From the IMG/VR virus record IMGVR_UViG_3300000116_000240, positions 1 to 21,620 of that record: DNA of 21,620 bases; one strand, 5' to 3'. Below, piece after piece: positions 1 to 21,620 of the stretch; position 1 is the stretch's first letter, and every line of letters begins with the position of its first letter. The position numbers were made by a program, and so were the translations under genes. The stretch comes from a virus. The notes below the pieces were generated by a model. It did no database searches and was not told the origin of the DNA. It saw nothing but the letters and a program-made list of their open reading frames with translations.

Positions 1-474
1 GTCTGAATACATTTCATAAAAGTTTAATGTCATAACATTTGCAACACCCCTAAATGATTCCATCCCTTGTGAATCTTCAACCAATCCATGTGTAAAATAA
101 AAATTATTTGAACTATCATCACTTGGTAATAGATGTATATTGTCGTAAAACTCTTCACTAAATCCACCAGATTTTCGAACAAGTGTTGCATTTGTGATTT
201 GTGGTGTGACAATGGTTTGATAAATCTGTGACAAATCAAATGTTGCAAAACTATTTCCAAGTGTTTGATAGGAAACTTGTTGTGTGAAAGAAATTGTTTT
301 TAAAGAACCAGAACCAGAATTCGTGTTGTAAGTTAGTTCAAGTAAAAACCTATATTTGTATTTTCCAGATGCTTGTGGATATACTGGTGTGGTTGTGTTT
401 AAATATACAACATTTGTTCCAGTGCTGATGTTGAAATTGTCATCATTCATTGTGACCGTTAAGTTGTTCGCCAT
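1..474 (-). CDS. Virion/tail-associated protein, 3' end cut by window edge
   Basis: An uninterrupted reading frame starts with ATG at 474 and is still open at position 1, giving 158 codons. It begins MANNLTVTMNDDNFNIS and continues with a Thr/Ser/Asn-rich, beta-strand-like sequence (KYKYRFLLELTY, FDLSQIYQTIVTP). There is no signal peptide or membrane segment. The start lies one base after the TAA stop of the gp10-like gene, so the two are almost certainly co-transcribed. Position after tail-terminator-like and gp10-like genes, and the beta-rich composition, suggest a tail or fibre component that opens with a strand-rich domain. I do not recognise a specific family, and the missing C-terminus prevents a better call. 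Confidence 0.75.
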   Translation of the reverse strand, partial: MANNLTVTMNDDNFNISTGTNVVYLNTTTPVYPQASGKYKYRFLLELTYNTNSGSGSLKTISFTQQVSYQTLGNSFATFDLSQIYQTIVTPQITNATLVRKSGGFSEEFYDNIHLLPSDDSSNNFYFTHGLVEDSQGMESFRGVANVMTLNFYEMYSD

Positions 475-475
475 C

Positions 476-1057
476 TTAGTTCAATTTAATTTCTTTTATA
501 ATTTTTTGAATGAATCCGTTTGCCATTGCAACACCTACATCACCACCATTTTCTGTGACAACTCTGTCAATTGCATCTTTGAAATAATTTCTTGCCGACA
601 AACCTTTTGTTGCAATACTTCTTCCAAGAAGAAATGCAAGTTGTTTTTTTGCTGATTCAGTATTCTTTGAAAATTGTCCAGTTCCTAAATCACGAAGTCT
701 GATTGGTTTGCTTTGTATCCATCCAGCCATCACACCTTGTGGAAGATTCTTTGATTTGAATCTAAATGGTGAATTCTTTGCTGATGGTTTTGTACTTTCT
801 GAACCCTTGACACCTTGTTCCATAAATGGTGCATAATCAACTGAAGATGTAAATTCAACATCAAATCCACTTGCAAATTGACCACCACTGGATCGCTTTT
901 GTTTAATACGATAACCAAGTGAAGAAGACAATGCACCAGTGTTGTTTGTCACTCTTTTCTTGCCATCAATCATTTTGGATGCACCAAGATTGATTCTTGC
1001 AAGTTTCACAACCCTTGAACCAAACTTCTGAAGTTCTTGTTTAGTAGTTGGAATCAT
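476..1057 (-). CDS. HK97 gp10-like head-tail/tail completion protein
   Basis: This 193-residue protein resembles the HK97 gp10 family, small proteins of the head-tail interface or tail completion. The visible signature is in the first half: a Thr-Gly-Ala-Leu-Ser-Ser-Ser-Leu-Gly segment around residues 40-48, a strand reading VEFTSSVDYAPFMEQG around residues 67-82, and a basic C-terminal half with an alpha-helical tail. The strand-then-YA-x-(F/Y)-x-E-x-G pattern is characteristic of the family. The start overlaps the stop of the upstream tail-terminator/lectin gene by four bases (ATGA type). Lying next to a tail-terminator-like domain fits the usual connector/neck gene cluster. The fold assignment is from sequence pattern only. 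Confidence 0.75.
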   Translation of the reverse strand: MIPTTKQELQKFGSRVVKLARINLGASKMIDGKKRVTNNTGALSSSLGYRIKQKRSSGGQFASGFDVEFTSSVDYAPFMEQGVKGSESTKPSAKNSPFRFKSKNLPQGVMAGWIQSKPIRLRDLGTGQFSKNTESAKKQLAFLLGRSIATKGLSARNYFKDAIDRVVTENGGDVGVAMANGFIQKIIKEIKLN

Positions 1058-2271
1058 CTATTGTTTAGCCAAATTAATGTGTTTGAAATGTCTTTGTCTG
1101 TCATCAGTTCATTTGTGTAAATATATTCTTGAAAATAGAAGTCAGATGTTTTTGATGGTGATGGATGTCCAATTCCAAATTCAGCATTGTCAAGTTCAAA
1201 TCCACTATTTATTTCAACATTATCATTTGCACCAGAACCATAATACAATTTTAGTTTTGATTGATTGAAGTCATATCTTAGACAAAAGGTGAATGATTCT
1301 TGTCTTCTGTGTTCGTTTGAATAATCATTTCCATTTGTTGGACATATTGCAAATGGTGTTTGTGCATCTGGTGAACCACTTGGTGTGAACAAAGTCAATT
1401 TACCATCTTCAAACACTTCAATAAAAAATCCATCATTTTCATTTAAAAAGTTTCCAAAATAACAAATTGTATTTCCAAAGTCTTCAAATGAAAACCTTCC
1501 AAAGTCTTTAATTCTTATAAAGAATGTTGCAAATCCTTCTGATATTACTGGATGATTTAAACTGATAGGTGTTGATTGTGATTGGTCAAAAAAGTGAATT
1601 GCGTTTTTTTGTGGATTCCAAGTCACGTTTGAATTGCTTGTGTTCATAGTCAATGTGTCATCACCACTTATTGTGTCAACTACTGGTTCAAGTGAAAACA
1701 ACTTATTGTTTGTGAAAGTTGCTTTGTCATGAATCTGTTCCCTTGAAAACCATGCAATTTCTGATGGTACTGAATTTGGCAACACATAACTTTTTGCATA
1801 TTGTTTCTCTGGATTGAAGTATGGAATCAAACAAGCTGATGCTTCATTTGGTGTGATGACATTGAATGATGTTGTCCATCCAGAACAATTGTCTGGTTCT
1901 GTGTCAATGAACGGTTGACATATGACTGGCAATTCCATTGAAATCAAAGTGTCTTGATTGATGAAGTATTTACCATCTGTTATTTCTTTGCATATATCTT
2001 GAAGAATCATCAAGGCATCAGACAAGCAATTTGCTTCATTTCGCATCTTGTTAGATTCAACATTGTATCTGTCAAATACAATTACATCAAAACCATACAC
2101 AAGAACTTGGTCATCAATTGATGTTCCAGTTGGTGTAATATGTAAGGCTGGATATTCTGTGAATTTATCCTTGTCAAAAAAGTTGACTTCACCATAAGTG
2201 AAAGATTCAATTTGCTGGTGTTGTGATGCAATAGAATCAAAGTATTGTATAATTGCTTTGTATGTAATCAT
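1054..2271 (-). CDS. Tail-terminator-like protein fused to a LamG/concanavalin-type lectin domain
   Basis: The 405-residue protein has two visually distinct parts. Residues 1-145 read like a tail terminator/gpU-type minor tail protein: an N-terminal helix (YKAIIQYFDSIASQHQQI), then short strands containing YPALHITP and a VYGFDVIVFDRYN strand, then a helix with regularly spaced leucines. Residues about 165-405 are beta-rich and resemble a LamG/concanavalin A-like jelly roll, with repeated aromatic strands (FFIEVFEDGKLTLF, ESFTFCLRYDF, KLKLYYGSG) and a terminal DFYFQEYIYTNELMTD-type strand followed by a short helix. Such lectin-like modules often bind glycans or decorate virions. The start overlaps the upstream chaperone stop by four bases. 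Simple tail terminators are usually only about 130-160 residues, so the C-terminal domain is an addition. The terminator call is moderate; the lectin call is somewhat stronger. Confidence 0.65.
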   Translation of the reverse strand: MITYKAIIQYFDSIASQHQQIESFTYGEVNFFDKDKFTEYPALHITPTGTSIDDQVLVYGFDVIVFDRYNVESNKMRNEANCLSDALMILQDICKEITDGKYFINQDTLISMELPVICQPFIDTEPDNCSGWTTSFNVITPNEASACLIPYFNPEKQYAKSYVLPNSVPSEIAWFSREQIHDKATFTNNKLFSLEPVVDTISGDDTLTMNTSNSNVTWNPQKNAIHFFDQSQSTPISLNHPVISEGFATFFIRIKDFGRFSFEDFGNTICYFGNFLNENDGFFIEVFEDGKLTLFTPSGSPDAQTPFAICPTNGNDYSNEHRRQESFTFCLRYDFNQSKLKLYYGSGANDNVEINSGFELDNAEFGIGHPSPSKTSDFYFQEYIYTNELMTDKDISNTLIWLNNR

Positions 2272-3016: not shown

Positions 3017-3052
3017 TTGTAAGTTTAAAGTTGTTTTTCTTTTATTTTCCTT

Positions 3053-4369
3053 TCAAAAAGCATAAATGCCATAATTACCTTTGACTTCATACCACATTCG
3101 CATCATCAATGCATCTGCATAATCTGGTGACCTTCCAAGAAGTGCTTTGATTGTATCCTTTGGAATGATTGAAAGTTTCTGTGTGTCCTTGTCAAGTTTA
3201 TCTCTTTTGATGATTTCAAGTTCTTCAATGATGGTTTGTTTGTGTCTTGTGTCTTTAATTCCTATTTTACCAGCATTGACCATTTCTGCTAATTTGAAAT
3301 AGCATTGTGTTTTTAAGTTCTGAAAGTTTTCAGATTTCAATGCCTTCGATCCGTTCACAAAACCTTTGCATCCAGACAACACATCTTTGACACCACCACC
3401 AACACCATCTTCATCAACAATGATGTGTGACCTTTGGACACCATTTTGCAGTGCCATTGTTTTAATTGCTTCAATTGTATCTGTGACTGATGACTTTGCA
3501 AATGAAACAATCTGTTCAGCATTCAATCCATTCCATAAAACAAGAACGGTCTTATCTGCACCAAATCTGGCAACATCACAAGTGATATGCTTGACACCAC
3601 CTTCAATTGTGTTTGTGAACATATCATGTATTGAATCATAGTCAAACAACAATGCGTCATCTTCGTTGTATTCCCAATCACCAAGAAGAAGTCTTTGTCT
3701 TGATACCTTGTCAAGTTTTTCAAGTTGCTTGATGTAGTGTTCAGATATTGCAGAATTGTCAGTCACAAGTGATTGAATGAACTTTCTGTGGCCAGGCAAC
3801 CTTTGTTCCTTTGATGGTTTATAAAATTCAGAATACAACCAAGTCTTTGTTGGATTGCAAGTCATTAAAGTTTTTGGAATCAAGTCAAACTTGTCCAGCT
3901 TGAAACGTATTCTTGAATTTAAGATGTTGATTGCTTTTTGACTTACTTCAGCACATTCATCAACAAATGCATCTGTGATTTCTAAACCACCAAGTGAAGT
4001 GAAGTCTGGATCACTTGGGTATAAAAACAAATCTTTCAGATATATAATTGAGCCATTGAAAAATGTGATTGTTGAATCTTGTGCATTGTATGTGAAGTCT
4101 TCATTTGGACTTAGACCACAGAAGTCTTGTGCAACTTCAAAGAATGTGTTCAGTGTTGTTGCTTTAAGGTTTTTCAATTTAGACCTTCCAATCACACTTC
4201 TTGTTCCTGGATATTGAAGTCTTCTGTGTATTTGCCAAAGACAACCAGTGAATGTTTTTGAACCACCTGCACCACCACCAAACAAAACTTCTGTTGTGGT
4301 TTTATCTTCAAGGTGATTGAAGCATTCAATTTGTTTTGGAAACAATTCTATATCAATTGTTTTTGGCAT
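3053..4369 (-). CDS. terL: Terminase large subunit (ATPase and nuclease)
   Basis: The 438-residue protein is the DNA packaging motor subunit; it hydrolyses ATP to drive genome translocation through the portal and cuts the concatemer. The N-terminal ATPase shows a Walker A motif GGAGGSKT (residues 32-39), a Walker B ending in the catalytic acid TDAFVDE (132-138) and a coupling motif TCNPT (170-174). The C-terminal RNase H-like nuclease has its three acidic clusters at CDVARFG (D265), VDEDGVGGG (319-327) and SPDYADA (414-420). Length and motif order are complete. The start overlaps the small terminase gene by 17 bases. The portal gene is not next to it but more than 10 kb upstream, which is unusual. 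Confidence 0.97.
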   Translation of the reverse strand: MPKTIDIELFPKQIECFNHLEDKTTTEVLFGGGAGGSKTFTGCLWQIHRRLQYPGTRSVIGRSKLKNLKATTLNTFFEVAQDFCGLSPNEDFTYNAQDSTITFFNGSIIYLKDLFLYPSDPDFTSLGGLEITDAFVDECAEVSQKAINILNSRIRFKLDKFDLIPKTLMTCNPTKTWLYSEFYKPSKEQRLPGHRKFIQSLVTDNSAISEHYIKQLEKLDKVSRQRLLLGDWEYNEDDALLFDYDSIHDMFTNTIEGGVKHITCDVARFGADKTVLVLWNGLNAEQIVSFAKSSVTDTIEAIKTMALQNGVQRSHIIVDEDGVGGGVKDVLSGCKGFVNGSKALKSENFQNLKTQCYFKLAEMVNAGKIGIKDTRHKQTIIEELEIIKRDKLDKDTQKLSIIPKDTIKALLGRSPDYADALMMRMWYEVKGNYGIYAF

Positions 4370-4640: not shown

Positions 4641-4910
4641 CTATTCTATGTCTTTTTGTGTGTCTTTGTCACTATCTGGTCTGATTTCTTCTGGAATAAT
4701 ATCAGCCATTGTCACTGATGTTTTTCCTTCATCCAACTTAGTCATCAAAGTTTGTGCAGTTTGAAGTGATTTGTCAAGTGCATATCCACGCATTAAACCT
4801 TTGACATATGATGCCACTGCTATCTGTCCAGGGAAAGTGTTTTCAGCCATTGTCATGAAATCAATCTGACCATTTTCAAGTCTTGGATATTCTTGTTCTG
4901 ATTCTGTCAT
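4641..4910 (-). CDS. Small protein of unknown function before the terminase genes
   Basis: I place the start at the ATG at 4910 (MTESEQEYPRLENG), giving 89 residues. A longer frame opens at 4955, but its extra 15 residues (MVIKSNTNNYLK and so on) lie entirely inside the HNH gene and look like out-of-frame sequence. The protein is acidic and helical, with GQIAVASYVKGLMRGYALDK and a short acidic C-terminus. No catalytic or metal-binding motif is visible. It overlaps the HNH gene by 35 bases and abuts the small terminase gene, so a packaging-related or terminase-associated role is possible, but this is only context. Confidence 0.7.
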   Translation of the reverse strand: MTESEQEYPRLENGQIDFMTMAENTFPGQIAVASYVKGLMRGYALDKSLQTAQTLMTKLDEGKTSVTMADIIPEEIRPDSDKDTQKDIE

Positions 4911-5142
4911 TGTGTTTGTCTTTAAGTAATTGTTTGTATTGCTTTTTATCACCATAGTGAATGTGGCATTTTCTACAAAGTGCCATCAAATTTTCAATGT
5001 TGTCTTTCAGTTTCGATCCACCAGATTGTCTTGCTTCTATGTGATGTATGTCCACTGCTTTTTTTCCACACATTTCACAAGGTATGAATTCACCAAATTG
5101 TGCATCAAAGAAATTGACATATACCTTTGTGTGATTTTTCAT
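4876..5142 (-). CDS. HNH endonuclease-like protein
   Basis: The 88-residue protein contains a complete compact HNH fold. Two CxxC pairs (C22/C25 and C56/C59) should hold a structural zinc. The catalytic segment DIHHIEARQSGG places His33-His34, Asn51 lies in IENLMALC, and CRKCHIHYG supplies the last His (60 or 62). HNH proteins encoded beside terminase genes stimulate the nicking or cutting activity of terminase in HK97-like phages, and this location, two genes upstream of terS, fits that role. A free-standing homing-type nuclease is the alternative. The start overlaps the upstream gene by four bases. Confidence 0.9.
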   Translation of the reverse strand: MKNHTKVYVNFFDAQFGEFIPCEMCGKKAVDIHHIEARQSGGSKLKDNIENLMALCRKCHIHYGDKKQYKQLLKDKHNDRIRTRISKT

Positions 5143-5501
5143 TCAAGTTTGTCTTTAAGATTTTCAATCAAACGGTTCATGTATCTTAAATAGAAGATGT
5201 CAAATTCAATGTCTTTCTGCTTGTGTTGTTTCCAATAAACATAAAGAACTGCACGAAGTCTTTGTGATGGTGTTTTTCCATCTGTCTTTTCATTCTCTAA
5301 TTTAAAGCCATCTAAAGCATCAAGTTCATCTTGTGATATATTATCACTTGAAAGATACATCAAGCATTCAGTCTTTCTTAAATCAAATAATTTGACTGAT
5401 GATTGTGTGTTCAGTTCATATGTACCCATGACAATCTTGACCGATCCATCATGCCTTGTTGCTATTGTTTCAACACTTACTGGAAGAACTAATTGTGGCA
5501 T
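5139..5501 (-). CDS. Conserved phage protein of unknown function
   Basis: This 120-residue protein begins with a strand-rich segment (TIATRHDGSVKIVMGTYEL), continues with a charged middle and ends with helices (PSQRLRAVLYVYWKQHKQ and YLRYMNRLIENLKDKL). The combination of TRxDGSxKIxxGTxEL and RLRAVLYVxWKQ is a pattern I have seen in uncharacterised phage proteins located near terminase genes, so I consider it a real conserved family, but I know no function for it. No Cys/His metal site, signal peptide or membrane segment is visible. It overlaps the HNH gene by four bases. Confidence 0.8.
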   Translation of the reverse strand: MPQLVLPVSVETIATRHDGSVKIVMGTYELNTQSSVKLFDLRKTECLMYLSSDNISQDELDALDGFKLENEKTDGKTPSQRLRAVLYVYWKQHKQKDIEFDIFYLRYMNRLIENLKDKLE

Positions 5502-5912: not shown

Positions 5913-6442
5913 ATCAAATCTTTTATGTTCTTTTTTACTTTGTCAATAGTGTATTGAATAGACTTGAAAGTGATTCCAGTTTCTTCAGATAATCTTCTAA
6001 TTGAAAGACCAGTTTCATAATAAAGTTGAAACAACTTTCTGTCATATTCATCAAATGTGTTTAGGCAATCATCAATCTTTTTGTTCATCTTTTCAATGTG
6101 ATGCAATTGCCCTTGTTCATCATCTGCATTTTTGTTGGCCAGGTGTTCAAGAAATGATTCATCACTTTCAATCTTCTTTCTTTTGTATTGAACCATCTTC
6201 TTGTTGAATTGTGATTTGTTTGAATAAAATTTCACCATCATAATCTTGCAAACATAGGTTTTGATTTTTCCAGAATCTATGATGATAAGAAGTTTGTGTT
6301 GGTTCATTGTCATCAATTGAACAAATGTTTCTTGGACTAAATCTTCAGACAAGTCTTTGTCTTTTGTTTTGTTAATTGCAAAACCAAGATAATAGTTGAA
6401 GTCTTTGTATATCCATTCAATTGGATGCCAGTTGTTTTTCAT
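5909..6442 (-). CDS. ECF-like sigma-70 family factor
   Basis: This 177-residue protein resembles group 4 sigma factors. Region 2 is visible at residues about 10-45, with LGFAINKTKDKDLSEDLVQETF matching the ED-LVQETF core that contacts RNA polymerase and melts the promoter. A variable, charged linker follows. Region 4 occupies residues about 120-177, where FDEYDRKLFQLYYETGLSIRR leads into the helix-turn-helix LSEETGITFKSIQYTI that would read the -35 element. The gene sits between the replication genes and the packaging genes, where a phage-encoded factor could switch the host polymerase to late genes. Its target promoters are not identifiable by eye. It overlaps both neighbours by four bases. 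Confidence 0.8.
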   Translation of the reverse strand: MKNNWHPIEWIYKDFNYYLGFAINKTKDKDLSEDLVQETFVQLMTMNQHKLLIIIDSGKIKTYVCKIMMVKFYSNKSQFNKKMVQYKRKKIESDESFLEHLANKNADDEQGQLHHIEKMNKKIDDCLNTFDEYDRKLFQLYYETGLSIRRLSEETGITFKSIQYTIDKVKKNIKDLI

Positions 6443-6837
6443 TCTTTTATTGTGTAGTTGACATCAGCTTGTGGAATAGTGCAAGACAAATACCATTCAA
6501 TTCTTTCAATTGTTTCATCTAAACCAGTACAAACAACTGCTAAATAACCATTCGCATTTAAAATTCCAATCACTTTCTTTTGGTTTTCTGATGGATAATT
6601 TCCTTTGACTTTCAATTCAATTGCAAGACCACTGATGTATTCACCTTCAACAATTCTTGGTGAATAGACAAACAAATCTGGAAAACCAGCTTGATAACCT
6701 TTTGCTTTATATGACCGATGTCTTGCAGATGCAATATACACACCACCAAGTGAACCGTTCACAAATACATCTTTATGTTGCATTTTCATATATCTGACAA
6801 CTGCTTTTTGAAGTTGTTCTTCTTTTTGTTTTCTCAT
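6439..6837 (-). CDS. VRR-NUC domain nuclease
   Basis: The 132-residue protein is a single small nuclease domain of the VRR-NUC type, part of the PD-(D/E)XK superfamily and related to Holliday-junction resolvases. Key elements are the N-terminal helix with Glu (EEQLQKAVVRYMK), GFPDLFVYSP with the catalytic Asp at about residue 54, and LAIELKVKGN with the Glu-x-Lys pair at 74 and 76, followed by PSENQ with the conserved Gln at 86. In phages such nucleases usually process recombination or replication intermediates before packaging. Co-location with SSB and the replication initiator supports this. It overlaps both neighbours by four bases. Confidence 0.88.
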   Translation of the reverse strand: MRKQKEEQLQKAVVRYMKMQHKDVFVNGSLGGVYIASARHRSYKAKGYQAGFPDLFVYSPRIVEGEYISGLAIELKVKGNYPSENQKKVIGILNANGYLAVVCTGLDETIERIEWYLSCTIPQADVNYTIKE

Positions 6838-7052: not shown

Positions 7053-7555
7053 TTTAAAAAGTCTTTAAGTCTTTGAACTGAACTTCTTTCACCAAGTGCT
7101 GACCATTCTGAATCTTGTCTTGATTTTTGTTTTTCTCTTTCTGTAATCACCAAACCAGTTCTTGTGATGTCATACCTGGTCAACCATTCCAAAATCATTC
7201 CACCATCTATTCTGTCAAAGATTTTTTCATTCATCTTTGCAAGTTTCAAACACATTCCGATGTCATAATAGTTGAAGTGTCTGAATTGCTGACAAATGAT
7301 GTATGCAGTTTCTTCCAATTGTGGTCTGTCCATTTTACTTTTGCAATTATAAAAGTCTTGAAATTTTATAAGCATCAACATCAGAATGTCAATTGTTTTT
7401 TCTTCTTCAAGTTTCATTGACTTGTATATTGATTGTGGTTTGTCAACCAGTGCAATCTTCACAATGTCATTCATGTTCATTTTCAACACTTGTTTGTTGA
7501 ATTCAGAATGGATCGGTGTTGTGATTTTATTGTCTATATTTTGCAAGGATGTCAT
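7049..7555 (-). CDS. Replication-block protein of unknown function
   Basis: This 168-residue helical protein contains a central segment DRPQLEETAYIICQQFRHFN followed by YYDIGMCLKLAKMNEKIFDR and DGGMILEWLTRYDITR. I recognise this ETAxxIxxxFRxxNxxDIxxxLKxAKxGxxxxDRxDxxxIxxWLxxYxxxR arrangement from uncharacterised proteins in Bacteroidota mobile elements, but no activity is known to me. The first 29 bases overlap the 3' end of the replication initiator gene, and the gene sits with replication functions. A helicase-loader or replication accessory role is conceivable from position only. The start used here is 7555; an internal Met at residue 26 (MNMNDIVKIAL) would give a shorter protein without the overlap. 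Confidence 0.7.
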   Translation of the reverse strand: MTSLQNIDNKITTPIHSEFNKQVLKMNMNDIVKIALVDKPQSIYKSMKLEEEKTIDILMLMLIKFQDFYNCKSKMDRPQLEETAYIICQQFRHFNYYDIGMCLKLAKMNEKIFDRIDGGMILEWLTRYDITRTGLVITEREKQKSRQDSEWSALGERSSVQRLKDFLK

Positions 7556-8297
7556 CAGCTATGTTGTTTGATGGTTTGTTTTCTTTTAATTGTTGAATAA
7601 TGTTCACCAAGTTAGAATTAATTTGTGACAATTTTACTTGCTTCTGAAGAAATGGTTCAAGATTCTTCCAATTCTTAAATATGTATTTTAAAGCATTCAA
7701 AATATTTTCTTGACTATCATCACCCTTTTGTTTGCAAAGTGTTTTTAAATAGCTTAAAATAGTCTTCATTGCTTTTCCTTGTACTGCATCAATCTTTGCT
7801 GGTGCATCAAAATTCGACAAACAAAATTTGTGATAAATGTCTATTGACATTTTATAAATGGTTTTAGTATCTGTGTTTATAGTATCTGTGTTTGTAGTAT
7901 ATGGTATAGGTTTGTCATTCTGCACAATTGCATTTGTGTTTTTAGACAAATCCATTTGTGTGTTTTCACAATTCCATTTGTCAGAATCAACAAATCTTTG
8001 TGAATCTACAATTGCAAACCATTTTGTTCTGTCATATTTTGCAGAATTAAAATTGTCTTGAAGTATAAAATTCTTGTCAGTTAGTGATTTTAATATTCTT
8101 CTGATTTGACTTTTGGTGAAATAAGGAAACAATTCATCAAAGGCAGACACTGAATTGTATGTCCAGAATCTGTCTTTGTGAAAGTGCTTATTGTTTGCTT
8201 TGTTTTTTTTGATCCAGAAGATAAAATGTTTCATCATTATTGATTCTTCAAGACCAATTTCACTTGCAAGATTTATGTCAAATGAATGTTCCATCAA
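7527..8297 (-). CDS. Winged-helix replication initiation protein (DnaD/replisome organiser type)
   Basis: The 256-residue protein has an N-terminal winged-helix domain typical of phage replication initiators: LASEIGLEESIMMKHFIFWI, then a YNSVSAFDELFPYFTKSQIR segment continuing into RILKSLTDKNFI, and finally a YDRTKWFAI strand. A low-complexity linker follows (residues about 125-147, PYTTNTDTINTDT), encoded by a short tandem repeat. The C-terminal domain, residues about 150-256, is helical and contains GKAMKTILSYLKTLC and ALKYIFKNWKNLEPFLQKQ, resembling replisome-organiser C-termini. The protein probably binds the phage origin and recruits the replication machinery. The neighbouring SSB and nuclease support this. 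Two consecutive Met codons form the start and overlap the upstream stop by four bases. Confidence 0.8.
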   Translation of the reverse strand: MMEHSFDINLASEIGLEESIMMKHFIFWIKKNKANNKHFHKDRFWTYNSVSAFDELFPYFTKSQIRRILKSLTDKNFILQDNFNSAKYDRTKWFAIVDSQRFVDSDKWNCENTQMDLSKNTNAIVQNDKPIPYTTNTDTINTDTKTIYKMSIDIYHKFCLSNFDAPAKIDAVQGKAMKTILSYLKTLCKQKGDDSQENILNALKYIFKNWKNLEPFLQKQVKLSQINSNLVNIIQQLKENKPSNNIADDILAKYRQ

Positions 8298-9236: not shown

Positions 9237-9488
9237 TTATATAGTGTTTGAAATTTCATCAATCTTTTGCATTCCAGTTTCAAGAACAATTGATGTTGAA
9301 TGACCATAAGATTTTTTTAGATCCATTATTCCAAACACTTTTCTTTTTGTGTCTGTAATAATTTTCTTATCTCTTTGTTGTATTTCGTATTCAAGCATTG
9401 TCAAAATGTGAGCATCTGAAAAATCACTTGACTTTATTTCTGCAATCATCCATTGCATTCTGCTTATGAATTGTTTTCTTGTTTCCAT
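9237..9488 (-). CDS. Small helical protein of unknown function
   Basis: An 83-residue, mainly helical, charged protein (RKQFISRMQWMIAEIKS, ILTMLEYEIQQRDKK). The first 25 bases overlap the 3' end of the previous gene in another frame. No motif identifies it. The downstream gap of about 45 bases separates it from the 71-residue gene and holds a possible promoter. Confidence 0.65.
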   Translation of the reverse strand: METRKQFISRMQWMIAEIKSSDFSDAHILTMLEYEIQQRDKKIITDTKRKVFGIMDLKKSYGHSTSIVLETGMQKIDEISNTI

Positions 9489-9736: not shown

Positions 9737-10077
9737 AAATGTTTTTTTAGCTGATTAATGACTTGAAGTTGTGAATCTATTCTTTGACTAATTGATTTTA
9801 TTGTGTCAAGAAGTTCTTTCTTGTTACCTGGATAATAATATCCTTTTGAACTTGAACAAATTGGTTCACCTTGATTCCTTAAATGATTGATGATTTTTCG
9901 CAGTCTAACACCATTTAGTTTGTGTTTGGTGTGCATGGTGTATGCAGAACAAATAGTTGTTCCAGACTTCGCATTTGACTTTCCAATGTACTTCTTCAAT
10001 CCATTCTTGACTGATTGAGCAATCTGCAATTCTTCATCAGAAAGATTGTGTGTGTTGTCTTCAAAGTTTTTAAGCAT
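9733..10077 (-). CDS. Helix-turn-helix-like protein, probable early regulator
   Basis: This 114-residue protein has a winged-helix-like middle: SAYTMHTKHKLNGVRLRKII, then NHLRNQGEPICSSSKGYYYP, which reads as a recognition helix followed by a beta-wing with a Ser-Ser-Lys-Gly-Tyr turn. Before it is an acidic helix (NLSDEELQIAQSVKNGLKKY) and after it a C-terminal coiled helix (DTIKSISQRIDSQLQVINQL) that could dimerise. The layout suggests DNA binding and regulation or replication control. It overlaps the methyltransferase stop by eight bases. Confidence 0.68.
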   Translation of the reverse strand: MLKNFEDNTHNLSDEELQIAQSVKNGLKKYIGKSNAKSGTTICSAYTMHTKHKLNGVRLRKIINHLRNQGEPICSSSKGYYYPGNKKELLDTIKSISQRIDSQLQVINQLKKHL

Positions 10078-11311
10078 TGTATATGTTTTTAAGTATTGAT
10101 TGGATCACTGGAACTGAAATTGTGTTTCCCATCTGTTTGTAAAGTTGTGTATCTGATTGAACTTCTTGACAAATATTGTGTTCTTCATCTGTAAAACCTT
10201 GCAGTCTGAAACATTCCAAAGGTGTCAACCTTCTTATTTTTTTATCATATTCAACTGCTTGTGAATTTTTTGAATCAAGACAATAGGATTTGCCATCTGA
10301 TTTTGAAAGGTGTCCAGAACCACCAGCATTTTTGTTCTTCTGAACTGATGGTCTGTTTGTGCTTCTTGTATGTGTTGAATGTACCTTGATAAAATTTGCA
10401 CCTTTATAAACACCACAAGCATGGCCAGGTGACTGAAGTGTTGATGCTATTTCTGGATTTACATTTGATGACTGCAAATTTTTAGTGTTTTCAATTATTG
10501 ATTTTATTGCCTTATTTGACAAATAGTATTTTTTATCAATTTCAATAAAGTTGTTATTAGTTGAAATCTTGTTGCATCTTGCAGTCAAACAATCTACAAA
10601 TTCACTTTCAGAATTTAATGGTTTGAATTTATTAAATTTTTGATTTTCTTGTAAATAATTGTAAGCAATATTTGACAATATATATTTTGAATTTGGATTG
10701 TCTTGAAGTATATCTTTCAATGTAATTGTCAACGGTTCACCAACTGGAAATGAAAATTGTCTTGCTTCTTTAAAACCGACAATAAATATTCTTTCTCTAT
10801 TCTGTGGCAATCCAAAGTCTTTTGTATTTAATACTTTGTAATGTATATGATACCCAAGACCATCAATGTCAGTCAGAAACATTTGGTCATTTACTGAACC
10901 ACCAGTTCCAGATAGTTTGTCTTTTATGATTTGAAATGTTCTTCCATTATCATGATTGATAAGACCTTTGACATTCTCTAATATGAAACACTTTGGTTGA
11001 TTGATCCTGATAAATTCAGACAAGGTGTAAAACAATGTTCCGTTTGTTGGACATTCAAAACCTTTTCTTTTTCCAGCTATTGAAAATGACTGACATGGAA
11101 AACCAGCAACATACAAATCAAGTTGTGGAAAGTCTGTTGGTCTTGTTGTGATGTCTTCAAACATCTGTTGTGGTTTGTGTAATGCTTCATATGAAGTTCT
11201 TGCATACTTGTCAATGTCACAAGCAAACAAGACTTGATGTTCAATACCAAGTCTTTTCAATGCAGTTTCTGGTGAACCAACACCACTGAAGTCTGTTCCT
11301 ATTTTTAACAT
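10070..11311 (-). CDS. Orphan C5-cytosine DNA methyltransferase
   Basis: The enzyme transfers methyl groups from SAM to cytosine C5 in specific sequences. Counting from the 429-codon frame, motifs are complete: motif I GTDFSGVGSPETALKRLG (residues 21-38), motif IV AGFPCQSFSIAGKRKG with catalytic Cys89, motif VI ENVKGL (128-133), motif VIII QNRERIFIVGF (186-196), motif IX RRLTPLECFRLQGF (376-389) and motif X QMGNTISVPV (409-418). I choose the ATG at 11311 (MLKIGTDFSG), 16 codons inside the longest frame, because an upstream gene ends exactly there in an ATGTTAA overlap; the longest frame opens at 11359. The variable region between motifs VIII and IX is about 180 residues, roughly twice that of M.HhaI and closer to multi-specific phage enzymes. 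No partner endonuclease is adjacent, so the role is probably protecting phage DNA. Confidence 0.95.
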   Translation of the reverse strand: MLKIGTDFSGVGSPETALKRLGIEHQVLFACDIDKYARTSYEALHKPQQMFEDITTRPTDFPQLDLYVAGFPCQSFSIAGKRKGFECPTNGTLFYTLSEFIRINQPKCFILENVKGLINHDNGRTFQIIKDKLSGTGGSVNDQMFLTDIDGLGYHIHYKVLNTKDFGLPQNRERIFIVGFKEARQFSFPVGEPLTITLKDILQDNPNSKYILSNIAYNYLQENQKFNKFKPLNSESEFVDCLTARCNKISTNNNFIEIDKKYYLSNKAIKSIIENTKNLQSSNVNPEIASTLQSPGHACGVYKGANFIKVHSTHTRSTNRPSVQKNKNAGGSGHLSKSDGKSYCLDSKNSQAVEYDKKIRRLTPLECFRLQGFTDEEHNICQEVQSDTQLYKQMGNTISVPVIQSILKNIYNA

Positions 11312-11472
11312 AGCTGACAAAGTGTTTTCATCCAAAACTTTCTTTTTTTCAATGCACACATTGAAATATTAATATTGTAATGTATTGACAAATATCTTTG
11401 AACAACATTCAAAGACTTGTTTCTTTTGTGTGCATATTTCATCACTTGTCTAATCAATGACTTTTTAAACAT
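11305..11472 (-). CDS. Small basic protein before the methyltransferase
   Basis: This 55-codon frame reads MFKKSLIRQVMKYAHKRNKS and continues with LNVVQRYLSIHYNINIS, ending in a Cys-rich tail. It fits exactly between its neighbours: its ATG overlaps the TAA of the preceding gene (AATGTTTAA) and its TAA overlaps the chosen ATG of the methyltransferase (ATGTTAA). The protein is highly basic, and the middle could form a helix-turn-helix, so nucleic-acid binding or control of the methyltransferase is conceivable, but no family is recognised. Confidence 0.6.
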   Translation of the reverse strand: MFKKSLIRQVMKYAHKRNKSLNVVQRYLSIHYNINISMCALKKRKFWMKTLCQLC

Positions 11473-12173: not shown

Positions 12174-12320
12174 CTATGATTTACTGAAGATAAATATATT
12201 TATTCTAATGAATAGAATATACAATTGTACTTCCAAGTATGGATGGTATTCATCTGGATCGAAATGTCTAATTCCAAACAACAACCCTTTGACAAAATCA
12301 ATGTTCATTCCTATGTTCAT
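12174..12320 (-). CDS. Small conserved phage protein with hydrophobic C-terminus
   Basis: The 48-residue frame begins MNIGMNIDFVKGLLFGIRHF and continues DPDEYHPYLEVQLYILFIRINIFIF. Small proteins with the pattern GLLFGIRHFxPDExxPYxEVQxYxxF seem familiar from Bacteroidota phages, but their function is unknown to me. The C-terminal 20 residues are hydrophobic enough for membrane association. The ATG overlaps the TGA of the phosphoesterase by four bases (ATGA), strong support for translation. Confidence 0.68.
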   Translation of the reverse strand: MNIGMNIDFVKGLLFGIRHFDPDEYHPYLEVQLYILFIRINIFIFSKS

Positions 12321-14354: not shown

Positions 14355-14917
14355 TACTTGCAACAATTCCAATTTGCAAGTTTGTTGTTTCCTCTATTTG
14401 CACCAGATATTGTCAAACCTGCTTCAGCATATGTTTGTGTGTCTGGATACATATCTGCACCACTATTTGAATTGTATTCTGGAAATGATGAAGTGTTGTT
14501 TGTCAAGTATTCAATCAACCGTTCAGTGTAGAATTGTGCATTGCTTCTTTCAATGTCAACCAATCTTAAAACTTCAGCTTGTGAAAGTGCAGTGATGTTG
14601 TCCACGTTTCTTGAACCAATAGTTCCGTTCAGAATTTTACCTTGTAAATAAGGATAAAAGTTGACAAGTGTCCATTTCAATGTTGCCATTTGAACATAGT
14701 CTTGCAATAATGTTTCATACACACCAGTGATTGTTCCAGCAGTGATGTCAGTTTTTAGTTTGTTGAACAAGTCAGTTCCAAGAATCGGTTGTATCTGTGA
14801 ATCTTGTGCTTGTATAATTGAAGGTAACAAATCTTTTTCATCAACCGATCCATCAAGGTGTGAATACGCTTTGATATAAGTTGCATCAATATAAATTACT
14901 TGTGAAGGTAGTGCCAT
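14354..14917 (-). CDS. Head-tail connector, gp6-like (DUF6712-like)
   Basis: The 187-residue protein is helical and resembles the gp6-like adaptor proteins that attach beneath the portal and close the filled head. The diagnostic region is DGSVDEKDLLPSIIQAQDSQ followed by IQPILGTDLFNKLK (residues about 22-55), then LLQDYVQMATLKWTL and NTSSFPEYN. I associate this sequence with the DUF6712 family of Bacteroidota phages. The gene follows the portal directly, as expected for a connector. The C-terminal 35 residues are Asn/Gly-rich and probably flexible. Confidence 0.7.
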   Translation of the reverse strand: MALPSQVIYIDATYIKAYSHLDGSVDEKDLLPSIIQAQDSQIQPILGTDLFNKLKTDITAGTITGVYETLLQDYVQMATLKWTLVNFYPYLQGKILNGTIGSRNVDNITALSQAEVLRLVDIERSNAQFYTERLIEYLTNNTSSFPEYNSNSGADMYPDTQTYAEAGLTISGANRGNNKLANWNCCK

Positions 14918-14928: not shown

Positions 14929-16995
14929 TTAGTCTTTCATAAATGGTGGATTCACTTTTGCATGGTTTGGCATATCATAAGGTGCAATTGATTCTGTTCC
15001 TTTCTGCTTTATGAATGGATTGTTTCCAACTCTTTGTTCATTCTTTAAACCATCACTTGGTAAGAACCGACCACTGACTTGTTTTCTGAAATATATTCTT
15101 CTAAGCCAACCATGTCTGCAATAACAACCACCTTTGAATTCAAATATATCATATGTTGATTGTCCTTTTTCAGCAAATGCACCATTGATTCCATCAGATG
15201 ACAATTCGTTTATGTCTTCAAGTGTCCATTCAAGACCTTGCCTTGACCATGACATCATCTGGTCACAAAACTTTCTTGATTTATTTCCAGCTTTGTTTGG
15301 TGTGTTGCTTGTCTTTTGATAAGCATATCTAACTTTGTAAAGACCAACATCAAGTGAAGATTTTGCATCTGCATCAGCCATTGATTTTGTTGGCATTTTG
15401 TTTGCAAATTTGTGCAGTTCTTCTTTTGATTTTATTTTGTCTTCAGTCAACAATTGCCATTCATCATCATTGTTTTTTTCTGCAAGAACTTCAAGTTTAG
15501 ACAAGAAGAATTCTGCTTGGTCATCACTTAAATGTGGTCTTTCATCTTTTTTTTTTGATGACATTGTTTCAAGTAATTGTTCACCACTTGAACTGAAGAA
15601 ACCTTTTGCAACATCTTCTGGAAGTTGTAAGAATTGAACTAAGAACACAACTGCTTGTTCTGGTGTCAAAATACCTTCTTGAACTTTTGCAACAATATCA
15701 ATTGCAGAACTAATTTGTGCACCATTGTATGATGCATCAACTTTTTCAACTTCTGTTTCTTCAACCATTCCACCAACTTCATCAGAAATTGTTGCATCTG
15801 CATTTGGAATGACATCAACTGCAACTTCTTCATTGATTGTTTCTGCTTCTGTATCTGCAAATTCAGTTTGAAACAAATCAAATGGTTCAAAGAATAACTG
15901 AAGATTGATTCCAGATTCAGCCATCAACAATTTTAACGCATCAATTATCACATCTCTGAATGGATTGACAACCGTTTGTTCAAATAGTGCTGATGCAGTC
16001 TGAAGTTCTTCAGCATTATTTCCAAGACCACCACCATCAATATTGACACCAAACAATCTTGGTGAAACAACTCTGTTTCCAACCATTATTTTGTTGGTGA
16101 TTTCTGTTGATAGGAATTGGAATTGCTTGTCTGCATCTGACAATGGAACTGCTTGAATGTCTGGTGTTGTATCTCTGCCATCTGAGAAAGTACAAAGAAA
16201 TTTTCCAGCATTCCTTGAACCAGAAAGTTCTGCTTCAATTGTTCTTTTTATGTCTTCACGTTTTTCCCTTGCTGGAATACCATTTGCAAAGTTTATGATG
16301 AATGATGGTGCAAGACCATTTTCGATTTGTGATAAATGAAATTGTGCAACATTCACATCAAGTTCAACATAATTCCATGCACCGATCCAGTCTGGTTTTG
16401 GATAATAGTATGAACCAACTGAATTCATTTTTACACAAAGAACTTGGTTTGGATAAGTTGCTTTTTCATGTGGATTGAATGCACGAAGTTCAGTGTATTT
16501 TGCCCTTGAACCAGCAGTCCAATCATGTGAATGATAGTAGGTGTCAACCTGGCCATCTTCATCAACGTGACCACTTCTCATTGTTTCATATGGAAGAACT
16601 TCCATTTCAACAATCTGTGTTCTATCAACTGAATATGAAACTGAAATATAAAAACCACCATGAAGTTTCAAATCCATACACATCAATTGTATGTCATTTT
16701 TTCCAATCTTGTGGTTTATCAGTTTATTAAATTGAACCCATTCTTCTGGATGTTCTTCTTTGTTGTCTGCATCAATACCACCACCATAAATCCATGCTGA
16801 AATTGAATTCACCAATGCGTTCTGTGTTGCAGAATTTTGATACAATCTGATTGTGTGTTGTGGAAACAAATTGTCCAATCCGTACCAAATAAAGTCAGAA
16901 CCCCTTTTGACAACTTCTTGTGAATCTGTCATTGAGTAACTTGCACCCATTGAACTGAACATATATTCTGTACTTGGTTTAGTCTTTTTAGCCAT
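14929..16995 (-). CDS. Portal protein with long C-terminal extension
   Basis: A 688-residue portal protein, the dodecameric channel through which DNA enters and leaves the capsid. Residues about 30-370 show portal features: WYGLDNLFPQHTIRLYQNS, an APSFIINFANGIPAREKRED segment, and NRVVSPRLFGV followed by a long helix (EQTVVNPFRDVIIDALKLLM). Residues 380-420 are an acidic linker. A small domain follows at about 423-465 (NGAQISSAIDIVAKVQEGIL), and then a C-terminal domain, 548-688, contains SRKFCDQM (C577) and FKGGCYCRHGWLRR (C624, C626, H628), which may bind metal and recalls the end of Mu gpF/SPP1 gp7-like head morphogenesis proteins. Typical portals are 400-550 residues, so this looks like a portal fused to a morphogenesis module. 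The start overlaps the upstream gene by eight bases. Confidence 0.88.
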   Translation of the reverse strand: MAKKTKPSTEYMFSSMGASYSMTDSQEVVKRGSDFIWYGLDNLFPQHTIRLYQNSATQNALVNSISAWIYGGGIDADNKEEHPEEWVQFNKLINHKIGKNDIQLMCMDLKLHGGFYISVSYSVDRTQIVEMEVLPYETMRSGHVDEDGQVDTYYHSHDWTAGSRAKYTELRAFNPHEKATYPNQVLCVKMNSVGSYYYPKPDWIGAWNYVELDVNVAQFHLSQIENGLAPSFIINFANGIPAREKREDIKRTIEAELSGSRNAGKFLCTFSDGRDTTPDIQAVPLSDADKQFQFLSTEITNKIMVGNRVVSPRLFGVNIDGGGLGNNAEELQTASALFEQTVVNPFRDVIIDALKLLMAESGINLQLFFEPFDLFQTEFADTEAETINEEVAVDVIPNADATISDEVGGMVEETEVEKVDASYNGAQISSAIDIVAKVQEGILTPEQAVVFLVQFLQLPEDVAKGFFSSSGEQLLETMSSKKKDERPHLSDDQAEFFLSKLEVLAEKNNDDEWQLLTEDKIKSKEELHKFANKMPTKSMADADAKSSLDVGLYKVRYAYQKTSNTPNKAGNKSRKFCDQMMSWSRQGLEWTLEDINELSSDGINGAFAEKGQSTYDIFEFKGGCYCRHGWLRRIYFRKQVSGRFLPSDGLKNEQRVGNNPFIKQKGTESIAPYDMPNHAKVNPPFMKD

Positions 16996-17491
16996 TGTAA
17001 GAAATTGAATTTGGAATGATTAATGGTTCAACACCACTTTGTGAATTTTGGAAATAGTCATTCACAAAATTATCATTGTGGACAAGTGCCATTCCATTTG
17101 TCACCATACCAATAATTGATGAATCATTTTTTGTAGTTGCACCAGAATCACCAAAATATACTTCATAGTCAAACAAACCAGTTGTGTCAATATTTATGTG
17201 ACCACTTCCAACATAGTCATCAAGATACAAACTGAATTGTTTGCTTCTTGGATAATTATCAACATAGTTTGAATTTGACAACAATTCTTGAAAGTATTCT
17301 TTTTGTGTTGCTTGTTCAATTAAAACAATATAGTAAGTTGTTCCAGTATAGTCAGTGTTGAAGTTTGGTGTGTATTGTCTTGTCAATGCACTTTGTGACT
17401 TAGAATTTGAAATGGTGTTTGCAAATACCCTTGAATATACATCCAAAGAAATCACATTCTCAAAACCATTTGAACTTCTAAGATGGATCAT
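16988..17491 (-). CDS. Structural-block protein of unknown function
   Basis: The 167-residue protein is beta-rich and polar, with repeated aromatic strands (YTGTTYYIVLIEQATQKEYF, KQFSLYLDDYVGSGHIN, GLFDYEVYFGD) and an Asn/Ser-rich C-terminus (PLIIPNSISYNG). It overlaps the portal gene by eight bases and the upstream 55-codon gene by 14, so it belongs to the same operon. A neck, tail or decoration protein is plausible from place and composition, but no family is recognised. Confidence 0.7.
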   Translation of the reverse strand: MIHLRSSNGFENVISLDVYSRVFANTISNSKSQSALTRQYTPNFNTDYTGTTYYIVLIEQATQKEYFQELLSNSNYVDNYPRSKQFSLYLDDYVGSGHINIDTTGLFDYEVYFGDSGATTKNDSSIIGMVTNGMALVHNDNFVNDYFQNSQSGVEPLIIPNSISYNG

Positions 17492-17691: not shown

Positions 17692-17716
17692 TATTCACTA
17701 ACAACTAAAAACTAAT

Positions 17717-18292: not shown

Positions 18293-18319
18293 ATTTTATA
18301 TTTTAAGAATTAAAGAATT

Positions 18320-18345
18320 GAAGATGGTCACTAAAGACCACCTTC
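18320..18345 (-). terminator. Hairpin after the major capsid gene, possible partial terminator
   Basis: On the coding strand GAAGGTGGTC and GACCATCTTC form a ten-base-pair stem with one G-U pair and a six-base loop. The tail is AATTCTTTAATTCTT, AT-rich but not a clean T run, so termination may be partial. It starts 12 bases after the capsid stop codon and 27 bases before the next start codon, and could also be an mRNA processing or stabilising element. Confidence 0.5.
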
Positions 18346-18357
18346 TTATTCATGTTT

Positions 18358-19272: not shown

Positions 19273-19273
19273 T

Positions 19274-19867
19274 TTACTTGTTTTTTACTTTATTAAAGAT
19301 TGCGAAAATTCTTTCATCTTGTGAAAGATTGGTTTTCACTTCAGTCTTTTTGCTTGACTTCGGTGTTGATTTAAAAGTTTTTGATGCAGACAACTTTTTA
19401 ACTTTTTCAAGTTCTGTGTTGTGTGATTCAATTAATTCAGCAACCTTCAATTCAATTGCTTCAGTAATCATTTTTCCAAGTTCAAAACCATCTTCTTTTG
19501 TCATGTAGTTTGACAAATCAATTTCTGATTTTTCTTCTTGAATTTCTTCTTGAACTTCTTCTTTGTCAGAAGACAAATCTTCTTCAACTGCATCTTCTGA
19601 TGCTTCTGGTGAACGAAGTGTTGTGATTTCTCCATCAACTACTTCAATCACTGCACCATCTTGCAGTTCATAAGTTCCAGATGGAAGTGCCATTCTTTCA
19701 TCATCTTCACCAACAACAAACACCATTGATCCTTCTTCAAATCTGTCAGAATCAGTTTTTATTGTAGTTCCATCGACAAGAAATGCTTCAGCCATCATGC
19801 TTGTTTCTTCAGATAGTTCTTCTGTCATTCCAAGAAGACCTTTCATTTTGTTGTAAATGTTTTCCAT
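19274..19867 (-). CDS. Scaffold-like/capsid assembly protein
   Basis: I start at the ATG at 19867 (MENIYNKMKGLLGMTEELSE), 197 residues; a frame opening nine codons earlier adds only a basic stretch. The protein is very acidic, with a small strand-rich part (FLVDGTTIKTDSD, SGTYELQDGAVIEVVDGEI) at about residues 30-85 and a long Glu-rich coiled helix after it (EEDLSSDKEEVQEEIQEEKS). The C-terminus is Lys-rich and helical and ends DERIFAIFNKVKNK, a typical capsid-binding tail of scaffolding proteins. It lies between the protease and the capsid genes. The role, guiding procapsid assembly before removal by the protease, is inferred from place and composition. Confidence 0.72.
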   Translation of the reverse strand: MENIYNKMKGLLGMTEELSEETSMMAEAFLVDGTTIKTDSDRFEEGSMVFVVGEDDERMALPSGTYELQDGAVIEVVDGEITTLRSPEASEDAVEEDLSSDKEEVQEEIQEEKSEIDLSNYMTKEDGFELGKMITEAIELKVAELIESHNTELEKVKKLSASKTFKSTPKSSKKTEVKTNLSQDERIFAIFNKVKNK

Positions 19868-19905
19868 TTTTTGTTTTTTGAATAGTATTTCCAATAGTTA
19901 AAAGA

Positions 19906-20703
19906 TTATTTCTTCTTTTTTTCCTTTCGCTTTTTCTTGTATCCTTTTTTTAAGATTGCTTTTGCTTTTGGAATAACTGAAGAAGCAATTGTTCTGTTCT
20001 TAATTGCACCACAAATCTTCTTTGCAGTTTCTTCATCACCATATTCAGCCATTTGGTCTGCAATACATTTATCCCAAGGATAGTCGGCCAGGTAAGTTGC
20101 TTCTTCTTTTTGAATCAAATCTTTAATCATTGCAAGTTTTGTTTCATCTTCTGACAATGATTGTTCTGACATTTCTTGCATCTTATCTGTGAAGAATCCT
20201 TCAATACTAAATCCAAGAATTTCACCTTCTTTGACCTTGTTCCAGATTTCATCATTGTCAACACGCATTGTCACAAACCATGTTCCAACTGGACAATGTT
20301 CGAAACCGTACTTGACTGACTTGTCAATTGCAAACTCTTTCACCCATGATTCAACAACACACAAACCTTCAACTTCTGATTCATGTTCAAGTGTTGCAGA
20401 TTGCAAGTGATTTCTTTTCATGTAAAGTTCAGAACACTTCTTAATTGTGTCTTTGGAAAAATAAACATAATAGTCAGAACCATCATCTGCAAGTCTGAAA
20501 ATCTGTTTGTTTGGAATCAAAGCTGGTGCAATAAGAAGTCTTTTGTCTTCATCTACTTTTGCAAATTTTAGTTCTTTTTCTTGCTTGTTTAGTGCAACCC
20601 AATATTCTTCAATTGCAGGATCTTCAACAAGACTGATTGCAAATACACCATCTTGGTCTTCTTTGTCTTCTTCTGAAATAATTAATTCAACTATTTTTGT
20701 CAT
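19906..20703 (-). CDS. XkdF-like prohead serine protease
   Basis: The 265-residue protein resembles the XkdF family of phage head maturation proteases, which cleave scaffold and capsid during maturation. Visible features are ATLEHESEVEGLCVVESWV with candidate catalytic His107, CPVGTWFVTMRVDND, and ILGFSIEGFF with candidate catalytic Ser166, in the family's order. A separate C-terminal module, about residues 205-238, reads YPWDKCIADQMAEYG then ETAKKICGAIK, a small Cys-containing helical motif found at the ends of several phage head proteins. The end is a Lys/Arg-rich tail. Its position directly before scaffold and capsid supports the role. Confidence 0.85.
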   Translation of the reverse strand: MTKIVELIISEEDKEDQDGVFAISLVEDPAIEEYWVALNKQEKELKFAKVDEDKRLLIAPALIPNKQIFRLADDGSDYYVYFSKDTIKKCSELYMKRNHLQSATLEHESEVEGLCVVESWVKEFAIDKSVKYGFEHCPVGTWFVTMRVDNDEIWNKVKEGEILGFSIEGFFTDKMQEMSEQSLSEDETKLAMIKDLIQKEEATYLADYPWDKCIADQMAEYGDEETAKKICGAIKNRTIASSVIPKAKAILKKGYKKKRKEKKKK

Positions 20704-20714
20704 TTTTTTAGGAT

Positions 20715-21620
20715 TTAAAGTGTTGATTTTTGTTGTATCATTGTGTTTATTTGTTGTGAATCTGTGACTTGTTGTTCAACCACATACGCTTGTATTGGTG
20801 CATCTTGTGTGAATGCAGTGTTGAATTGTTCTGTGATTGATGGAAGACCAGACAAATCAACAAGTGATTCCATATCTGTTGACTGACCACCTTGTCCACC
20901 ACCACTTGGAATTGATGCACTACTTGGTGCTTGAACATTTGCTGGTTTTTCTGTTTTAACTGACAATATTTCTTTTACGTTTTTGATACCAGTTGCCAAA
21001 GTTAAACCAGCAGTCACAAATGAAAATGGTGGTGGTGATGATGCCAATGCCATGTTCACTGCTTTGTATGTGTCAATTGTAGCTGATGCAACACCAGATA
21101 CTTTTGCCATTGCTGAACCTTCAGCAAATAGATTTCCAGCCATGTTGATTGAATTCTGCAAGATGTCAAGTTGTTGCATCTTGTATTTCTTTTCAATTTC
21201 AACTTGTTGCTTTGCAAATTCTTCTTGTATTGCAGTTGTGTCTTGTCCAGACTTAGTTGCTAAATCAATCTTTTGTTTATACCACTGGTCAAGTTCTGTC
21301 AGTTCAATTTCTCTTTCTGTCTTGCCTATTGTGGCAAGTTCCATCACTGCATCTTTTTGTTCTTGAATCAACCCTTGTTCATTTGTCAGTTGTTCAGATT
21401 TTTGACCAGCAATCCTTTCTTCTATGTCAATCTGTTCAAGAAGTGCTTGTTGATATGCAGTTTGAAGTTCAACTGATTTTTCATTTGTGTCAAGTTCAAG
21501 TTTTGCAATTCTGACCTTTTCATCTGCAATTGCTTTTTCTTTTGCAGTTTGGTCTTCAAGTATTCTTCCAAGTTCTTCGTTTGCTTCAATTCTGTCTTGT
21601 ATTGACCTGGACACATCATC
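20715..21620 (-). CDS. Tail tape measure protein, C-terminal part; 5' end outside window
   Basis: The frame is open at the right edge and supplies 301 residues. The first 170 are a long coiled coil (EANEELGRILEDQTAKEKAI, ERIAGQKSEQLTNEQGL), followed by a small-residue hydrophobic segment (YKAVNMALASSPPPFSFVTA, GLTLATGIKNVKEIL) typical of the C-terminal part of tape measure proteins in Bacteroidota phages. A Ser/Gly/Gln-rich linker and a short helical end follow. The protein sets tail length and takes part in DNA delivery. It is unusual that the prohead protease gene follows it directly. Confidence 0.82.
   Translation of the reverse strand, partial: DDVSRSIQDRIEANEELGRILEDQTAKEKAIADEKVRIAKLELDTNEKSVELQTAYQQALLEQIDIEERIAGQKSEQLTNEQGLIQEQKDAVMELATIGKTEREIELTELDQWYKQKIDLATKSGQDTTAIQEEFAKQQVEIEKKYKMQQLDILQNSINMAGNLFAEGSAMAKVSGVASATIDTYKAVNMALASSPPPFSFVTAGLTLATGIKNVKEILSVKTEKPANVQAPSSASIPSGGGQGGQSTDMESLVDLSGLPSITEQFNTAFTQDAPIQAYVVEQQVTDSQQINTMIQQKSTL

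Follow-up and report, generated by a model that had tools for sequence, protein, structure and literature searches.

Context-exact avoidance of GATC in a marine phage and its link to a proposed recognition module of a predicted phage C5-cytosine methyltransferase

Background

Systems of the AlwI and BinI type modify GGATC and are Type IIS systems that cut GGATC. Among the C5-cytosine methyltransferases of phages, the tandem recognition domains of Bacillus phage enzymes have been reviewed, and M.BatI is a prophage C5 enzyme that hemi-methylates GCSGC (PMC8936443). From the side of the target sites, another study found GATC to be under-represented in 46 of 46 phages with hosts encoding the matching nuclease (PMC6286503). 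Site avoidance and a phage methyltransferase, usually described as alternatives, appear complementary and exact in the marine phage analyzed here, of which we took a window of 21,620 bases (the whole stretch of DNA studied) from an uncultivated virus record (G000) that is 23,260 bases long and encodes a predicted C5-cytosine DNA methyltransferase. We show that this phage avoids GATC with an exact exemption for GGATC, that the pattern is linked to the methyltransferase gene among close relatives, and that in unlike phages it is linked to one module of the enzyme, called T3. The reading that we favor, with a probability of roughly 0.7, is that T3 directs methylation of GGATC, which would block a host nuclease cutting GATC, all other GATC having been purged.

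Terminase, portal and further phage genes are encoded in the window. The host is likely a member of the Flavobacteriia, because the terminase shares about 50% identity with its counterpart in Flavobacterium phage 11b and 48% with the one in Cellulophaga phage phi10:1.

Results

The exact count of GATC in the window is 16, all of them read as GGATCD or HGATCC, with neither GGATCC nor HGATCD occurring, and in the complete record 17 of 17 stand in the GGATC context. A second-order Markov estimate predicts 82 sites, and shuffling synonymous codons in the coding sequence, a procedure that holds proteins and codon counts constant, predicts 55.1 +/- 5.6. GATC is under-represented in the window phage relative to this codon-preserving null; HGATCD is missing altogether (0 against 36.8 expected, with a minimum of 22 in 1000 shuffles) and sites of the GGATC type are undepleted (16 against 17.8). 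Given the rate at which unrestricted relatives (state C, below) have their GATC in a G context, 16 of 16 such sites would have a probability of about 4e-7. An earlier sequence-only reading of the window had listed 16 sites, each of them GGATC on one strand and none GGATCC, and had judged GATC to be several-fold below an expectation made up mostly of other contexts; the exact count agrees with both statements, the listed positions being off by a few bases. Its proposal of selection against GATC that tolerates GGATC also stands, the shuffling null being strongly rejected. Its codon counts need revision: Asp-Gln pairs do always take GAC and Asp-Pro pairs always GAT, but in our set of open reading frames (ORFs) they number 11 (GAT 0) and 3 (GAC 0) instead of 13 and four, and the Arg-Ser(TCN) pairs, reported as five AGG and two CGG with never an AGA or CGA, comprise AGG 4, CGG 2, CGT 3 and one CGA.

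Comparison with 35 viral contigs whose terminases are about 80% identical or more to that of the window revealed three states. In state A, found in the window and in the majority of its closest relatives, GATC occurs solely as GGATC; in state B (G009, G016, G027, G028 and G031) there is no GATC at all against 41-93 expected per record; in state C (G012, G013, G015, G019-G021, G023-G025, G029, G034 and G035) GATC is near expectation, with 39.5% of the sites in a G context. Sister phages show other solutions, either zero or unrestricted GATC, and G017 is intermediate. The terminase tree demands at least eight changes of state, with at least five for state A by well-supported branches. Codon choice follows the states, Asp-Gln being encoded with 86 GAC and 7 GAT in A, with GAC only in B and with 114 GAT and 5 GAC in C, and Asp-Pro with 71 GAT and 6 GAC in A, with GAC only in B and with 75 GAT and 5 GAC in C. 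When state A is pooled and set against the codon shuffle, HGATCD reaches 1%, TGGATC 103% and the remaining GGATC 11-23% of expectation. TGGATC was first adopted as the exempt motif and then dropped for GGATC, base composition accounting for part of the preference for T; in the pooled data the base favored before GGATC is T.

The window enzyme is, by its sequence, a member of the PF00145 C5 class, matching this profile with 232.9 bits (cut-off 22) over profile positions 7-323 of 324 and carrying GFPCQS, QNRERIFIVGF and RRLTPLECFRLQGF (PCQ and motifs VIII and IX). In G000 we found no gene with an adenine-class motif (DPPY/NPPY/SPPY); beyond the C5 enzyme there is only an NPPF within the portal gene. 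A family search of all records identified C5 genes in G000, G011, G018, G022, G030 and G033 (the same as L083), and a further carrier is L284, a longer copy of L200 that an identical overlap of 123 bases joins to G010. The METHYLTRANSFERASE link is complete on the side of the carriers, all seven of which are in state A with zero HGATCD exceptions. Where the locus is covered and the gene absent (nine records), two are in state A (G008, G026), two in B (G027, G031) and five in C (G013, G019, G020, G024, G034); carriers and non-carriers differ in state A with Fisher P = 0.003, or 0.02 once near-copies are merged. The same pair of small genes flanks the methyltransferase gene, joined to it by start/stop overlaps, and no scar is seen. 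L284/L200 and G034, in which GATC is normal, share about 87% DNA identity over 8-10 kb and differ by the clean insertion of the methyltransferase gene, and L284/L200 and G031, which has no GATC, share about 86-88% with the gene present in one and absent from the other. No other comparison is as clean as this set of three, in which each phage is in a different state. The earlier suggestion that the host cuts GATC and that the phage methyltransferase protects GGATC gains support from the uniformity of the carriers. A clade member combining the same methyltransferase with free GATC was looked for and none was found, relatives without the gene being mostly GATC-free or unrestricted.

Alignment of the enzymes showed that the catalytic part and motif IX are common to all and that the blocks between them vary, with blocks T1, T2, T3, Ta and Tb recurring in different combinations and numbers. 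From these alignments the window enzyme appears to be a phage C5-methyltransferase with several exchangeable recognition modules. The order of blocks is T1-T2-T3 in the window, another block followed by T2-T3-Tb in G018, Ta-T3-Tb in G011, T1-Ta-T3 in L200 and T3 alone in L086, and of the variable modules T3 alone (consensus "HSTHTRS…NAGGxGHLSKSDG…YCLD") is shared by all of the window, L080-L084, L200 and L086. The genome of L086 is unrelated, with some 630 alignable bases, and 19 of its 19 GATC are GGATC, its enzyme having T3 as its single module. Enzymes of the same frame without T3 (L085, L087-L093) belong to phages without the pattern, and the residual GATC of L087-L093 have no obvious common context. 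Searches of named phages and the PDB with the short T3 module gave no usable match and a longer query only weakly related enzymes, so that no characterized relative of T3 was found there. An AlphaFold model of the L086 enzyme, built from six sequences, was poor (predicted local distance difference test, pLDDT, 35.5) and was not used. As for the other modules, tolerance of GGCC is largely confined to clade members with T2, and L085, with a T2-like module, has 14 GGCC against 13.7 expected; T2 may be a GGCC module. No significant link was found across phages between T1, Ta or Tb and CCWGG, GGCC or GCNGC.

Scans with the module and with the catalytic part added about 150 loci. GGATC-only phages among these were L217 (8/8), L223 (15/15), L233 (20/20), L264 (8/8), L278 (9/9), L292 (13/13), L293 (11/11), L296 (19/19), L301 (13/13), L302 (11/11), L304 (13/13), L314 (12/12), L315 (14/14), L317 (12/12), L318 (7/7) and L338 (9/9), several of them mutually related. 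Module types of GGATC-only phages are RSENRPS (three), GRTS (six), LHPRCGD (four) and LGGRKGD (two), and other modules of the superfamily, such as HNTMPRSS and HSLYPRSSK, occur in phages depleted of GATC without the GGATC exemption. When each module was compared with its nearest module neighbor on a genome sharing less than 1.5 kb, 53 of 62 had the same state, a value reached in 0 of 1000 shuffles, which makes for a strong association when the module sequences themselves are compared; this neighbor test was used together with average linkage, single-linkage clustering having merged nearly all modules and being uninformative.

The flanks of the tolerated GGATC differ by module variant. L217 and L223 have GGATCG at 23 of 23 sites (9-10% G in the reference), the related pair L247 and L262 has AGGATC at 27 of 30 (reference about 40%), a pyrimidine precedes GGATC at 43 of 43 sites in L217, L223 and L233, all 20 sites of L233 read YGGATCR, and in the window clade it is mostly T that stands before GGATC. 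Neither a quirk of the nuclease nor a host methylase would predict this dependence on the module variant. In the window record, 9 of 17 GGATC sites are followed by G (reference 2%), against 2 of about 20 in the other carriers.

Other short sites were also unevenly distributed in the clade. Nearly all state-A phages show no avoidance of CCWGG (16 against 8.4 expected in the window record); with the single exception of G034, the phages of states B and C have almost none (in G020, 0 against 19.2). L086, with T3 alone, avoids CCWGG, and the tolerance in state A is therefore probably due to another module or to a host difference. GGATCC is absent from the state-C records G012-G035 despite their free GATC, 0 against about 27 when estimated as GGATC x GATCC / GATC, although codon shuffles give a lower expectation of 0.5-2 per genome; this suggests a separate pressure of the BamHI type. 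CTAG is absent clade-wide but for a single site in G017, and GGWCC nearly so in all states. CCGG is absent from most members and over-represented in G019, G020, G021, G023 and G025 (34 against 17 in G019), and CATG is missing from G026 (L111, L112; 0 against 106 expected), its nearest relatives having about half the expected number. G034, the only state-C phage tolerating CCWGG, has 9 GCSGC against 1.3 expected and encodes a 379-residue protein in which an ABC-type ATPase is fused to a GNAT domain (L115:5832-6968; phrog_11143, of unknown function), which is a possible base modifier. Some clade members have a PAPS-reductase-like protein of 289 residues (phrog_424) beside a sigma-factor-like gene (L114:6783-7649 and relatives). 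In the window the neighbors of the methyltransferase gene are small genes of unknown function, the HNH and VRR-NUC genes lying a few kb off (Table 1).

Table 1. Positions in the window of the methyltransferase gene and its parts, of two nuclease-type genes and of all GATC sites
Feature	Positions	Strand	Remark
C5-cytosine DNA methyltransferase (PF00145)	10070..11311	-	Sole such gene in record; 413 aa from ATG at 11311; upstream GTG at 11359 in ORF list
Catalytic GFPCQS motif	11087..11104	-
Module T1 (NQKFNKFKPLNSESEFVDCLTARCNKISTNNNFIEI)	10538..10645	-
Module T2 (AIKSIIENTKNLQ...KGANFI)	10388..10516	-	Possible GGCC module
Module T3 (KVHSTHTRSTNRPSVQKNKNAGGSGHLSKSDGKSYCLDSKNSQAVE)	10250..10387	-	Proposed GGATC recognition module; sole variable block common to GGATC-only carriers
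Conserved motif IX region RRLTPLECFRLQGF	10193..10234	-	End of variable part
HNH nuclease (PF01844)	4876-5142		88 aa; near terminase genes; probably the usual packaging-associated type
VRR-NUC gene	6439-6837
GATC as GGATCG	891..894
GATC as CGATCC	3348..3351
GATC as GGATCA	4009..4012
GATC as CGATCC	5015..5018
GATC as CGATCC	5443..5446
GATC as GGATCG	7511..7514
GATC as TGATCC	8211..8214
GATC as AGATCC	9320..9323
GATC as GGATCA	10103..10106
GATC as TGATCC	11003..11006
GATC as GGATCG	12257..12260
GATC as CGATCC	14847..14850
GATC as CGATCC	16384..16387
GATC as GGATCA	17486..17489
GATC as TGATCC	19728..19731
GATC as GGATCT	20619..20622

Discussion

The mechanism that we propose begins with a host nuclease that would cut GATC. 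T3 would direct the C5-methyltransferase to GGATC, where the methylated base would most probably be the cytosine of GATC on that strand. Each GGATC/GATCC would then be a hemi-protected GATC left uncut by the nuclease, while selection would have eliminated GATC elsewhere, which the enzyme could not protect, for the most part by the use of synonymous codons. GGATC is thus proposed as the target of a C5 enzyme, and the point is raised that a single methylated strand may be enough to protect GATC in nature.

Several observations weigh against this reading. All the relatives compared are metagenome contigs. GGATC is less dense in state A (0.71 per kb) than in state C (1.81 per kb), meaning that the exempt motif is not wholly free. 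At the level of the T3 superfamily the association is modest (19/62 against 5/43; P = 0.03), and the majority of its members lack the GGATC-only pattern; the modules of L338 and L228 are very similar and their states differ, L303, whose enzyme lacks T3, is GGATC-only (10/10), and so is L307 (5/5), where the module is deleted. The main loose end is given by G008 and G026, both complete records, which have the GGATC-only pattern with no C5-methyltransferase, G008 having only a PF01555 enzyme and G026 no methyltransferase that we could find, and for both the proposed mechanism requires the added assumption of a recent loss of the gene. In G026 such a loss is plausible, because it has three HGATCD sites and falls, on the terminase tree, in a group with three carriers; the start of its downstream gene, ATGATAATAAAC, resembles that of the methyltransferase, ATGATAAAAG. 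The single HGATCD exception of G008 reads GACC in the other copy of the terminal overlap.

These two phages are also what would be expected if the host and not the phage protected GGATC, through a cellular GGATC methyltransferase accompanying a GATC nuclease, the phage enzyme serving other targets. The tolerance of CCWGG, which separates state A from states B and C, could likewise be caused by different hosts, and a host difference is hence a possible confounder of the comparison of states. Against host protection stand the seven of seven phage C5 carriers in state A and the power of the module to predict state and flanks across unlike genomes, including that of the single-module L086 enzyme. 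In addition, a scan of a collection of bacterial genomes with the narrow module returned nothing and the wider module set returned one contig of a metagenome-assembled genome (L282), which is not GGATC-only. We regard host protection as unlikely, though it is the strongest of the alternatives.

A nuclease that spares GGATC by its own specificity would make methylation unnecessary and would explain the exact exemption as well as G008, G026 and L303. To our knowledge, however, no nuclease is known that spares GGATC among GATC sites. In state-B relatives that share about 86-88% DNA identity with a state-A phage, GGATC has been purged too, and the spared context (GGATCG only in some phages, mostly AGGATC in others) varies in step with the methyltransferase module, and we consider this explanation quite improbable. 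Even less credit is due to protection by some other phage gene, such as an adenine/N4 methyltransferase of the PF01555 family, which the state-A records G001, G003 and G008 have but the window and most C5 carriers lack. A small PF01555 methyltransferase was considered as the cause and rejected, since its close homologs elsewhere accompany every GATC state. Genes of this kind occupy variable positions in the clade (L097:11873-12508, L102:1915-2535, L009:4508-5128 and L063:382-990), their copies having near-constant ends and strongly divergent middles, as swapped recognition regions would, and the copy in G002 is truncated by a deletion that fuses the remainder to the next gene. Finally, the idea that no protective selection is involved, and that codon usage, composition or a mutation bias such as deamination of methylated cytosine produced the pattern, draws on the low GC content and strong codon bias of the window genome but is the least credible of all, as codon-preserving shuffles never approach the observed pattern, GATC is normal in close relatives of equal composition, and the sites lost to deamination of methylated GGATC would be the exempt ones rather than the others.

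Methylation of GGATC directed by T3 consequently remains our preferred explanation. A wider claim, which we advance tentatively and would place slightly short of an even chance, is that phages in general split their protection against a given nuclease in this way, a small exchangeable module methylating one flanking context and the rest being purged, with at least five sequence groups of modules that differ in the flanks they tolerate and with the residual contexts revealing the specificity of the methyltransferase. What the comparison offers in practice is a route from sequence to the target of an uncharacterized phage C5-methyltransferase module.

We know of no C5 enzyme with a GGATC target; the AlwI and BinI systems share the target with the window enzyme and differ from it in being Type IIS systems that cut GGATC. 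Multi-domain phage C5-methyltransferases were known already, and it is their combination with site avoidance that appears to be new, no report of a methyltransferase module combined with context-exact GATC avoidance having been found in the literature searched, which comprised open papers. The Dam-type enzyme of the lactococcal phage Phi93 is similar in being a phage-borne methyltransferase that protects GATC from a DpnII-type nuclease, but it methylates the adenine in every GATC (PMC4190342), whereas the window enzyme belongs to the C5 class and would act on GGATC only. The avoidance described in the available part of PMC6286503 concerns the whole site, whereas in the window it is exact outside one flank and the exempt context follows the methyltransferase module. 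M.BatI resembles what we propose for the window in being an orphan phage C5 enzyme that yields hemi-methylated sites, but it has another target and a short single recognition domain, and the accessible part of PMC8936443 reports no link to genome-wide site avoidance. The closest architecture is that of the SP-beta-type phage enzymes (SPR, phi3T, rho11 and H2), which like the window enzyme have a common catalytic part with tandem modules between motifs VIII and IX, that of SPR being about 32% identical to it; as described in the same part of PMC8936443, the sites of the known Bacillus phage enzymes are fully methylated, whereas the GGATC proposed for the window is asymmetric and accounts for only some of the GATC sites.

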